Shown piece after piece: positions 36,050 to 40,670 of a DNA stretch of 64,000 nucleotides. The DNA comes from Acuticoccus mangrovi. GTDB taxonomy: Bacteria > Pseudomonadota > Alphaproteobacteria > Rhizobiales > Amorphaceae. The stretch lies in the NCBI RefSeq assembly GCF_016411865.1, contig NZ_JAEKJA010000003.1, positions 496,001 through 560,000 on the forward strand, written 5' to 3'. Numbering within the stretch: the stretch's first letter is position 1; each line of letters starts with the position of its first letter. The translations under genes were made by a program, and so were the position numbers. The notes under the pieces were generated by a model. The model was given only the letters and a program-made list of their open reading frames with translations. It did not search any database and was not told the origin of the DNA.

Positions 36050-36155
36050 GTCCGCTTTCCTTCGGGCTGCCGGGGCGTCAGTGCTTGGGGACGTCCGATG
36101 ATCGCTCCGCCGTTCGGGCAACGTCCCGCCCGGCTGGACATCGTCCCTCCCAGAC

Positions 36156-36177
36156 TTATGAAGTGATCATTCCATAA
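36156..36177. promoter_or_regulatory. Probable operator between divergent TetR and oxidoreductase genes
   Basis: An imperfect 22-bp dyad centred on TGATCA with outer arms TTATG and CCATAA. A related half-site, CTCCATAAG, recurs at about 36214-36222. They lie in the 195-bp spacer between the TetR gene and the oxidoreductase operon, where a repressor acting on both would bind. Confidence 0.55.
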
Positions 36178-36244
36178 ATCTCCGACGCTTGTCAACGATT
36201 TCCAGAGTGCCTACTCCATAAGTCGACAAATCGACGAGGCCGGC

Positions 36245-36877
36245 ATGGCACGAACGGGTCGTCCCCGCAGTTTCGACCGAGAGAGCGCGTTGGACGCCGC
36301 GATGCGGCTATTTTGGCTGCAGGGGTACGAGGCGACCACGGTCAGCCAGCTCGCCGCCGCCATGGGCAAGCTGTCGTCGGCGAGCTTCTATGCCGCCTTC
36401 GGCTCCAAAGAGATCCTGTTTCGTGAGATTCTGGAGCGCTATGAGGCGATCCACGGTCAAGCTCTGGCGCCGCTCAGCGACACCACCCTGCCGCCACGCG
36501 AAGCCGTGGAACGGGCGCTGCGGGCCTCGGTTCGCATGCAGACCGCGCCGGACCTGCCGACCGGATGCCTCGTAGCCCTCGGAGCGTCCGGCTGGTCGGA
36601 ACACAACGCCGCGCTTGCGGCCTGCGTCGCGGAAACCCGCGCCCGCAATCGCGCCAGCTTCTCCGCCTGCGTCGACCGCGCCGTCGCCGTCGGTGACCTC
36701 GACCCCGAGAGCAACACCGCGGCCCTCGGTCTGATGTTCGACACGGTTCTCCTCGGCCTCTCGATCGAGGCGCGCGACAGGCTGCCCCGCGCGCAGCTCG
36801 AGGAGGTGGTGGCCGTGACTATGCGCCTCTGGGACAGCTTTGCGCCCCAGGGAAGAGCCGCCGCCACGCGCGGGTGA
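36245..36877 (+). CDS. TetR-family transcriptional regulator
   Basis: A 210-residue regulator beginning ARTGRPRSFDRESALDAAM, the typical start of one large TetR subgroup. The helix-turn-helix follows (GYEATTVSQLAAAMG, then SSASFYAAFGSKEILF). A conserved LPTGCLVALGA segment in the ligand domain is shared with this subgroup. It is divergent from the 3-hydroxyisobutyrate dehydrogenase-like/SDR operon. Confidence 0.88.
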   Translation: MARTGRPRSFDRESALDAAMRLFWLQGYEATTVSQLAAAMGKLSSASFYAAFGSKEILFREILERYEAIHGQALAPLSDTTLPPREAVERALRASVRMQTAPDLPTGCLVALGASGWSEHNAALAACVAETRARNRASFSACVDRAVAVGDLDPESNTAALGLMFDTVLLGLSIEARDRLPRAQLEEVVAVTMRLWDSFAPQGRAAATRG

Positions 36878-38653: not shown

Positions 38654-39286
38654 TCACATCGGCGGGACAACGCCGTTGGTGCCGACGACGATGCGCTGCG
38701 CCGTCATCGTCCCGTCCGCGGCCTTCCTGGCCGGGATGAACACGACGGCGCCCGGCTTCAGATCGGACTTGGTAGCCGGCGCGAAGGTGACGACGGGCGT
38801 TCCTTGCGGAACGGCGATCGTCTTCTCCTTCCCGTGGTAGGAGACGGTGACGGTTTGGCCGTCCACACTCGTGACGGCGTCGGCGACGGTGGCGTTGGTC
38901 ATGGTGCTGTTCGGCTTCAGATCCCATCCGAAGCTGCCTTCGCCGGTGCCCTTCAGCGCCGAGGGGAAGATCAGCACCTCGAGCGCCCCGTCGCCGCCGT
39001 CCGCCGTGGGCAGCGAGGCGATGCCGACATAGTCGCCCGGCTTGATGTCCGAGATGTCTGCGCCCGCGACGCCCGACACCATCCACCCGTTCGCGAGGGT
39101 GATGTCGACGGTTTCGCCTTCGCGCGTCCTGACGTCCAACGTCCCGTCCGCGAAGTTCACGACGGAGCCGCGCACGTTGACCGGTTGCGCCGCGGCATCC
39201 TGGGCCGCAGCAGGGGATCCGATGCCTGTGGCGAGCGGCAGGCTGACGATGGCCGCAAGCAAGGCCGGTCCGAATTTGGTGATCAT
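38654..39286 (-). CDS. Secreted DUF5666-like protein
   Basis: A 210-residue protein with a signal peptide (LLAAIVSLPLATGIG, cleavage near AAAQD). The mature part consists of repeated small beta modules (VRGSVVNFADGTLDVRTREG, DIKPGDYVGIASL, SVDGQTVTVSY, DLKPGAVVFIPA), the pattern of DUF5666. Function is unknown; the family is often next to electron-transfer membrane proteins, as here. The ATG is 13 bp from a perfect 18-bp dyad, so repression by the nearby TetR protein is likely. Confidence 0.7.
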   Translation of the reverse strand: MITKFGPALLAAIVSLPLATGIGSPAAAQDAAAQPVNVRGSVVNFADGTLDVRTREGETVDITLANGWMVSGVAGADISDIKPGDYVGIASLPTADGGDGALEVLIFPSALKGTGEGSFGWDLKPNSTMTNATVADAVTSVDGQTVTVSYHGKEKTIAVPQGTPVVTFAPATKSDLKPGAVVFIPARKAADGTMTAQRIVVGTNGVVPPM

Positions 39287-39298
39287 GTCATCTCCTTT

Positions 39299-39316
39299 AT
39301 ACCTACTAGTAGGTAT
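39299..39316. promoter_or_regulatory. TetR operator, copy 1 (perfect palindrome)
   Basis: ATACCTACT followed by its exact complement, 18 bp, just upstream of the DUF5666-like gene. Its 16-bp core TACCTACTAGTAGGTA recurs in variant form at 39398 and 40039. Confidence 0.8.
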
Positions 39317-39397
39317 ATTGCTGGCGCAAATTTGTGTGAGAGCCGATGCGGTGCGCCGAATCTCCGCAACGACTTGAAAGGAAATTCACCACGTAGC

Positions 39398-39413
39398 TAC
39401 CGACTAGATGGTA
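39398..39413. promoter_or_regulatory. TetR operator, copy 2
   Basis: TACCGACTAGATGGTA, matching copy 1 at 13 of 16 positions. It lies about 100 bp further upstream of the DUF5666-like gene and after the 3' end of the TetR gene. Confidence 0.7.
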
Positions 39414-39440
39414 GGCTAGGTTGGCAAATTGTCACCCCTC

Positions 39441-40028
39441 TCATTGTCGACGAGCGACGAGCCTCTCGATCAAGGGTTGGGTCACGACGGTGAAGACCGA
39501 GGGGTCTCCGTACGCCCGCGCCGAGAGCATTGCGCCGTGCACCGTTGCAATGAACCCCTCCGCCTCGGATCGTGCGGTCCCGGCCAGAGTGAGCGTCCCC
39601 TCATCCGCACCTTGCTCCATGAGAGAGGTCAGCCAATCCGAGAACATCCGAAAATAGGCCCGGACCTCCGCGACGACCTCCGATGGAAGAACCGGAAGTT
39701 CGGTTGCGAGCAGCGCGCAGACGCAAAACGTCCGCGTCGCGTCGGCGATGCAGCCCGCCCAGTATCCCGTATAGGCGCGGAGCTGATCCGCGGGTTGCGG
39801 ATAGGCACGCCCGAGCTCGGCGATCGCCGTCTCGGCATCTTCGCGGTAGCGCACCACGAGCGTGCGAACCAGATCGACCTTGCTGGGAAAGTGGTGGTGA
39901 ATGCTCGCCTTGCGAATGCCGACCACTTTGGAGATGTCGGCATAGCTGAAGCCGTTATACCCCCCTTCGATGATGAGCGAGCGCGCGCAACGAAGAATGT
40001 CGTCAGAGGTGCTTGTCAGGTTGCTCAT
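39441..40028 (-). CDS. TetR-family transcriptional regulator
   Basis: A 195-residue regulator. Helix-turn-helix at about residues 9-55: ILRCARSLIIEGGYNGFSYA, then VVGIRKASIHHHFPSKVDLV, typical of the TetR subgroup with the HHHFPSK recognition end. It sits between the DUF5666/cytochrome/Mo-enzyme operon (same direction) and a divergent LysE exporter. Three copies of one 16-bp dyad flank these genes, which makes autoregulation plus control of both neighbours likely. Confidence 0.88.
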   Translation of the reverse strand: MSNLTSTSDDILRCARSLIIEGGYNGFSYADISKVVGIRKASIHHHFPSKVDLVRTLVVRYREDAETAIAELGRAYPQPADQLRAYTGYWAGCIADATRTFCVCALLATELPVLPSEVVAEVRAYFRMFSDWLTSLMEQGADEGTLTLAGTARSEAEGFIATVHGAMLSARAYGDPSVFTVVTQPLIERLVARRQ

Positions 40029-40038
40029 AAGATTAATC

Positions 40039-40054
40039 TACCTTCTAGTAGGAT
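40039..40054. promoter_or_regulatory. TetR operator, copy 3
   Basis: TACCTTCTAGTAGGAT, matching copy 1 at 13 of 16 positions, in the spacer between the divergent TetR and LysE genes. Confidence 0.7.
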
Positions 40055-40076
40055 GACTGTCAAGTGGCGAGATCGG

Positions 40077-40670
40077 ATGAAAATGGATACCCTGCCCACC
40101 CTCGCGCTGTTCGTCGTCTCCGCCACCATCACGCCGGGACCGAACAACATTATGGTGATGGCGTCCGGTGCGAACTTCGGTTTTCGCCGTTCGCTGCCTC
40201 ACCTCAGCGGCGTCGCCACCGGCGTTCTCGGCATCACCCTGTCGGTTGGCCTGGGGCTGATGGCCGTCTTCGACATGTTTCCGGTGCTGGAGCAGGTGTT
40301 GCTCGGCGTGTCCGCCGTCTACCTCCTGTGGCTCGCATGGAAGATCGCGAACACCATGCCAACCAAGGCGAAGAGCACGGCGGCTCACCCGCTGACGTTC
40401 GTCCAAGCCGCGACCTTTCAGGTGGTGAACCCGAAGATCTGGGCAATCGGCCTCTCCGCCATCACCCTCTATGCGCCCGAGCGTTCCCTGGCCTCCACGC
40501 TCCTGGTCGCCTCGTCTTTCGCCGCCGCCGGTCTGGCGTCGAACGCGATCTGGACCAGCATGGGCACCACGCTGCGCCACTGGCTGGCCGTGGGACAAAG
40601 GTTCAGGGCTTTCAATATCGCCATGGCGCTCCTGCTCGTCGCCTCGCTCTACCCGTTGTTGTTCCGCTAG
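40077..40670 (+). CDS. LysE-family amino-acid/metabolite exporter
   Basis: A 197-residue membrane protein of about six helices. The N-terminal signature VSATITPGPNNIMVMASGANF is characteristic of LysE/RhtB, and FQVVNPKIWAIGLSAI is the second conserved segment. The start may be ATG 40077, 40083 or 40053; the first is preferred because it leaves the operator copy 3 outside the gene. It is divergent from the TetR regulator. Confidence 0.88.
   Translation: MKMDTLPTLALFVVSATITPGPNNIMVMASGANFGFRRSLPHLSGVATGVLGITLSVGLGLMAVFDMFPVLEQVLLGVSAVYLLWLAWKIANTMPTKAKSTAAHPLTFVQAATFQVVNPKIWAIGLSAITLYAPERSLASTLLVASSFAAAGLASNAIWTSMGTTLRHWLAVGQRFRAFNIAMALLLVASLYPLLFR

Follow-up and report, generated by a model that had tools for sequence, protein, structure and literature searches.

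The regulator studied here belongs to the same protein family as the structure PDB 2g7s, which we take to be Agrobacterium Atu0279. The two proteins align over residues 1 to 192 with 277 bits, and the cysteines at positions 14, 93, 102 and 104 are all kept. A functional paper on 2g7s or Atu0279 was not found among open-licence PMC papers. NemR (4yze), which like RcrR represents chlorine sensors that leave DNA on oxidation of cysteines, gave a weak match to the regulator (25.8 bits, E = 8.9e-5). A described system resembling the locus in its operator is PaaR of Burkholderia cenocepacia, a TetR-type repressor for which an inverted repeat, ACCGACCGGTCGGT, lies between the putative -35 and -10 elements, is needed for repression and recurs at several target promoters (PMC2770484). 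This arrangement, an ACCNAC...GTNGGT repeat between putative -35 and -10 elements under a TetR-type repressor, is a precedent for the one described below; the likeness is one of operator and regulator class, and PaaR differs in governing phenylacetate catabolism and in its operator core (PMC2770484). The second comparison, RcrR of uropathogenic Escherichia coli, is an HOCl-responsive repressor that senses via cysteines and controls a small inner-membrane protein (PMC9600549). Here the analogy is only one of working principle, a conserved-cysteine repressor over a small membrane protein: by position number, the RcrR cysteines are 54, 88, 95 and 153 as against 14, 93, 102 and 104, and the targets are rcrA and rcrB, the latter of DUF417 (PMC9600549). 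Searches of open-licence PMC with the operator sequence described below returned fragment matches only, in papers unrelated by title, and related boxes occurred in papers on phenylacetate genes. None of the papers listed there for TetR regulators with DUF5666, DUF308/HdeD, cytochrome b561/molybdopterin or MsrP treated the regulator studied here, judged by title and abstract start.

The analysed stretch of the Acuticoccus mangrovi genome (64 kb, hereafter the window) encodes the TetR-family regulator of 195 amino acids on the minus strand at 39441 to 40028, with the domains TetR_N (PF00440; 42.2 bits, cut-off 24) and TetR_C_13 (PF16925; 30.9 bits, cut-off 27); its score against the AcuR model NF051457, 31.1 bits, lies below the cut-off of 247. 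On the same strand follow a DUF5666-like protein of 210 amino acids with a signal-peptide-like start by eye (38654 to 39286), a cytochrome b561-type membrane subunit (PF01292; 37686 to 38546) and a molybdenum (Mo)-cofactor oxidoreductase of the MsrP/sulfite-oxidase type (PF00174; 36917 to 37693) with a twin-arginine start, also by eye. The DUF5666 assignment is marginal, PF18914 scoring 26.2 bits, just under the gathering cut-off of 27. The predicted structure of this protein (mean pLDDT 74) is mostly beta and in two parts, and Foldseek found nothing similar to it with an E-value of 0.001 or lower. For the Mo protein, the best NCBIfam model is MsrP (NF003767, PRK05363), with 83.7 bits against a cut-off of 207. 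It thus shares the Mo-cofactor domain with MsrP (YedY) of the MsrPQ system while falling far under the MsrP cut-off, and the locus differs from MsrPQ in that the partner is a PF01292 cytochrome b, accompanied by DUF5666. At the far end of this redox operon lies a second TetR_C_13-type regulator (36245 to 36877), and the region upstream of it (36152 to 36240) holds two imperfect palindromes unlike the dyad described next.

The original prediction had placed three copies of one 16-bp dyad around the TetR gene, two upstream of the DUF5666-like gene and one in the spacer between TetR and a LysE-type transporter, and both number and placement were borne out, the first two lying in the gap between the TetR and DUF5666 genes. 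The perfect copy, TACCTACTAGTAGGTA, occupies 39300 to 39315 (O1) without mismatch and is contained in a perfect 20-bp palindrome, TATACCTACTAGTAGGTATA (39298 to 39317). The variants TACCGACTAGATGGTA (39398 to 39413, O2) and TACCTTCTAGTAGGAT (40039 to 40054, O3) each deviate from it at 3 of 16 positions and are clearly weaker copies of the dyad. The window has no match besides these three when up to three mismatches are allowed, and none of 100 dinucleotide shuffles of the window contained three or more. The genome-wide search for the motif that had been proposed returned the same three places, within 755 bp at the TetR locus, from the whole assembly (5,457,789 bases, i.e., 5.46 Mb, in 65 contigs; 97.44% complete). 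The reversed pattern, a control of the same composition, matched at nine places genome-wide, so the clustering of TACCTACTAGTAGGTA is unusual more than its total count.

O3 lies in the spacer of the predicted tetR promoter, TTGACA-17-TAGATT (40035 to 40063, minus strand), which agrees with the consensus in 10 of 12 bases; the dyad sits between the -35 and -10 elements and touches the latter. We searched 84,980 species genomes for homologous loci and aligned the region upstream of tetR in the best 80 (TetR 64 to 78% identical) of at least 547 with a confirmed TetR relative; one of the 80 was dropped for want of a match. Each base of TTGAC is kept in 70 to 78 of the 79 aligned loci. After a short variable gap it is followed by the other conserved block, the dyad, and the rest is close to random, with only a weakly conserved TA behind the dyad and an AT close to the start codon standing out. 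O3 is therefore best read as the putative autoregulatory operator of tetR, and a palindromic operator at the own promoter, as expected for the TetR family, is thus predicted from sequence at this locus. The predicted -10 element is separated from the tetR start codon by six bases (40028 to 40035), and in 74 of the 80 loci the 15-base conserved block ends 8 to 10 bases short of the start codon; the tetR mRNA may be leaderless or nearly so across the family.

Judged by record titles, the 80 loci come from alpha-, beta- and gammaproteobacteria, Paenibacillaceae and mycobacteria. With up to three mismatches allowed, 63 of them have the dyad 10 to 80 bp upstream of tetR (76 with up to four). After the gene, 560 to 1400 bp from the tetR start, it was found in 62 loci (67 at up to four mismatches). 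The remaining 599,009 bases of these loci contained 8 sites at up to three mismatches and 13 at up to four, some of which are genuine additional sites, for example the DUF5666 operator in locus L004. At up to three mismatches the dyad is absent from three of the 80 loci (L021, L062 and L078). All 67 distinct target sites have a C directly ahead of the dyad, and their consensus is C-TACCWACTAGTAGGTA. The dyad is, as predicted from these alignments, the operator of this TetR family and travels with the regulator at fixed positions.

We further surveyed a sample of 397 genomes of the order. The TetR is encoded in 36 of them (E 1e-50 or better), and 33 of these 36 have a site at up to two mismatches, versus 43 of the 361 without the regulator (Fisher p about 1e-23 with counts read from tables, a value that is too small given the shared ancestry of the genomes). 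Among the matches listed, in which some of the 33 genomes have no position given, the only site of G284 at up to two mismatches lies on another contig. Three of the 36 genomes (G193, G226 and G355) lack any site within two mismatches. Sites near TetR at three mismatches were found in G226 (two), G355 (one) and G284 (one) and none in G193. The original prediction had held that a motif widespread at unrelated sites would refute it, and the survey does not account for every occurrence. In 20 stretches around sites away from the family TetR, chosen by hand and not at random among the matches listed, a distant TetR relative (23 to 36% identity) was present in 15, and in 10 it was within about 110 bp of the site. 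This type of box thus seems to be common to a wider TetR group. The other five stretches lack such a relative. The genome of one stretch, G369, has a family TetR elsewhere. A related box, TACCGACTAGTTGGTA, occurs in six genomes of one genus (g98): G369 (L127), G223 (L128), G180, G291, G319 and G332. G223, G319 and G332 have no family TetR at E 1e-50; a distant TetR relative lies beside the box in G223, and none was found in the stretch of G369.

O1 is located 13 bp before the start codon of the DUF5666 gene. In 11 of the 80 best homologous loci a dyad lies 7 to 14 bp before a DUF5666 gene (in L078 at four mismatches), and these 11 comprise every locus among the 80 that has DUF5666 after tetR. 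O1 therefore probably serves the DUF5666-cytochrome b-MsrP-like operon as its operator. At O1 no clear promoter has the placement seen at tetR, which counts against the reading. The Shine-Dalgarno-like AAAGGAGA directly after O1, and a similar spacing in other loci, would also fit dyads that form mRNA hairpins beside the ribosome-binding site instead of protein-binding DNA. We regard such hairpins as very improbable, since a dyad also lies between the -35 and -10 elements of tetR, where transcription would not include it, and since occurrence of the dyad follows a DNA-binding protein, extending to the 10 of 20 inspected stretches with a distant TetR relative within about 110 bp.

Taken as operators, the three dyads would form one circuit with the TetR encoded between them, and we hold it very probable that tetR and the DUF5666 operon are repressed in this way until an inducer appears. 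The regulator, as a dimer or a pair of dimers, would bind O3 inside the tetR promoter and repress its own gene. On O1, together with O2, it would repress the DUF5666-cytochrome b-Mo-oxidoreductase operon. The inducer would release the protein and end repression. The locus is most likely a genuine local TetR regulon of an ordinary kind, autoregulation included.

The variant site O2 lies upstream of O1 in the gap between TetR and DUF5666, the two sites starting 98 bp apart. The bases flanking O2 resemble those of the first site after tetR in L004, which precedes a DUF308 gene, a second site there preceding DUF5666; 21 of 32 flanking bases agree, the top value among 67 rows (mean 10.6, standard deviation 2.8). 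Furthermore, the TetR proteins of the window, L004 and L108 group together with 95% SH-aLRT support, and both L004 and L108 carry DUF308. Together, flanks and grouping suggest that a DUF308 gene was lost in the window and its operator left behind, so that O2 is perhaps a relic of a DUF308 promoter. The only PF03729 (DUF308) protein found in the genome is on another contig, where no dyad at up to three mismatches exists. Tandem sites before DUF5666 also occur in L006 (at four mismatches), L007, L008 and L009, 87 to 94 bp apart, and a weak promoter-like match, GTGACA-16-TACCAT, overlaps O2. Both would fit O2 as a working second operator, acting by looping or at a second promoter, and we give this possibility somewhat less than an even chance: the tandem spacing varies (87 to 98 bp), a tandem pair is missing in 7 of the 11 other loci that have a dyad ahead of DUF5666, and the flanks match the DUF308 promoter of the nearby L004.

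The LysE-type transporter (40077 to 40670, plus strand; PF01810 with 42 bits, gathering cut-off 25.6) is divergent from tetR, and we judge it to lie outside the conserved regulon. The original prediction had counted it in, as an exporter that the regulator couples to the redox module, possibly with one toxic compound as inducer. The likely LysE start codons, at 40077 or 40083, are indeed only 22 to 28 bp away from O3, an in-frame ATG at 40053 overlaps it, and a LysE promoter, wherever placed, would have to overlap O3 or the tetR start. O3 is already accounted for as the tetR operator, and LysE was found beside TetR in none of the 80 best loci (open reading frames matching at least half of LysE at 1e-5). 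It had no match in 12 further TetR loci either, and L020 has one weak LysE-like open reading frame that is not adjacent to TetR. A simple consensus scan of 39200 to 40150 found no plus-strand sigma-70-like promoter facing LysE. With neighbour and facing promoter both missing, the exporter link amounts to an adjacency seen only here, and a regulon that includes LysE appears unlikely. LysE relatives at 1e-30 are present in 6 of 10 genomes of the bacterial family, the window's own included. The closest one in the other genomes (G100, 58%) lies beside a gene read as DnaJ-like, with neither a family TetR nor the dyad in the 17-kb stretch around it. Hence, of the regulon first proposed, the redox operon stands, with dyads flanking TetR in most of the 80 loci and preceding DUF5666 in 11, and the exporter most likely does not belong. 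LysE most probably lies beside tetR by chance, although its incidental repression from O3 is possible, given the 22 to 28 bp to the likely start codons.

The genes under the operator differ among the loci. The commonest sole neighbour under the operator is an unnamed membrane protein with the sequence MFGISPLGW (here MFG), found alone in 33 of the 80 loci, followed by DUF308 alone in 30. The DUF5666-cytochrome b-Mo protein module occurs with DUF308 in five loci and without DUF308 or MFG in four, including L021, where the module is only 30 to 40% identical, lies upstream of tetR and has no site at three mismatches. Three loci have DUF5666 plus DUF308, one has DUF308 plus MFG, and four have none of these modules. 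Among 12 further regions, MFG comes after DUF5666 in two (L106 and L107), two have DUF5666-cytochrome b-Mo protein (L104 and L110), seven have MFG or DUF308 alone, and one (L114) has neither module nor site. As MFG takes the place of cytochrome b and the Mo protein under this operator in L106 and L107, the partners may be interchangeable. Mapped on a tree of 93 TetR proteins, the types of module require 27 changes, with a mean of 46 for shuffled labels. The tree is a quick one, with support under 80 for 39 of 89 inner branches. Since 27 is far above the minimum of seven, we infer that outputs were exchanged repeatedly.

Members of the MFG family share MFGISPLGWVHTLGSLPAIP (example at L016:4676-5161), and an alignment of 28 members shows His11, Pro107 and Glu111 to be invariant. 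No Pfam match was obtained for L015, L027 and L044, and L056 matched only below cut-offs. For a model of the MFG protein (pLDDT 85), Foldseek likewise gave no hit with an E-value of 0.001 or lower. In a second look cytochrome b561 ranked third (Z 7.7, 4.8 A over 145 residues), but unrelated helical bundles scored equally well and the value lies inside the noise range described for the tool, which gives no basis for uniting the membrane modules by fold. Five of six Paenibacillaceae loci (L050, L051, L055, L071 and L072, not L060) have a further common family downstream, whose L050 member is an AhpC/TSA protein.

In the 93 TetR proteins, the ligand-domain cysteines Cys93 and Cys102 are kept in all and Cys104 in 92, and Cys14 in the N-terminal part is kept in 85. 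The three near-invariant ligand-domain cysteines may point to a thiol-based sensor, and a thiol-reactive oxidant or electrophile is therefore the leading guess for the signal. They may also be structural. The AhpC/TSA neighbour and the MsrP-like enzyme point weakly to thiol or oxidant stress as well. We tentatively propose, as roughly a one-in-three possibility, that the family senses such a compound through its cysteines and that one operator drives exchangeable envelope modules, namely DUF5666-cytochrome b-MsrP-like, DUF5666 plus MFG, DUF308, or MFG alone. If so, with regulator and operator constant and the output swapped, the modules would answer the same stress.

This TetR family is widespread and, as far as the literature search showed, little studied, and its cysteines are conserved. 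The part worth following is the family with its operator and exchangeable outputs, on which we found no paper. Assigning the operator to so broad a family gives a testable regulon for membrane and periplasmic proteins of unknown function and, if the cysteines are the sensor, would give the output proteins a shared part in the response to thiol or oxidant stress of the envelope.
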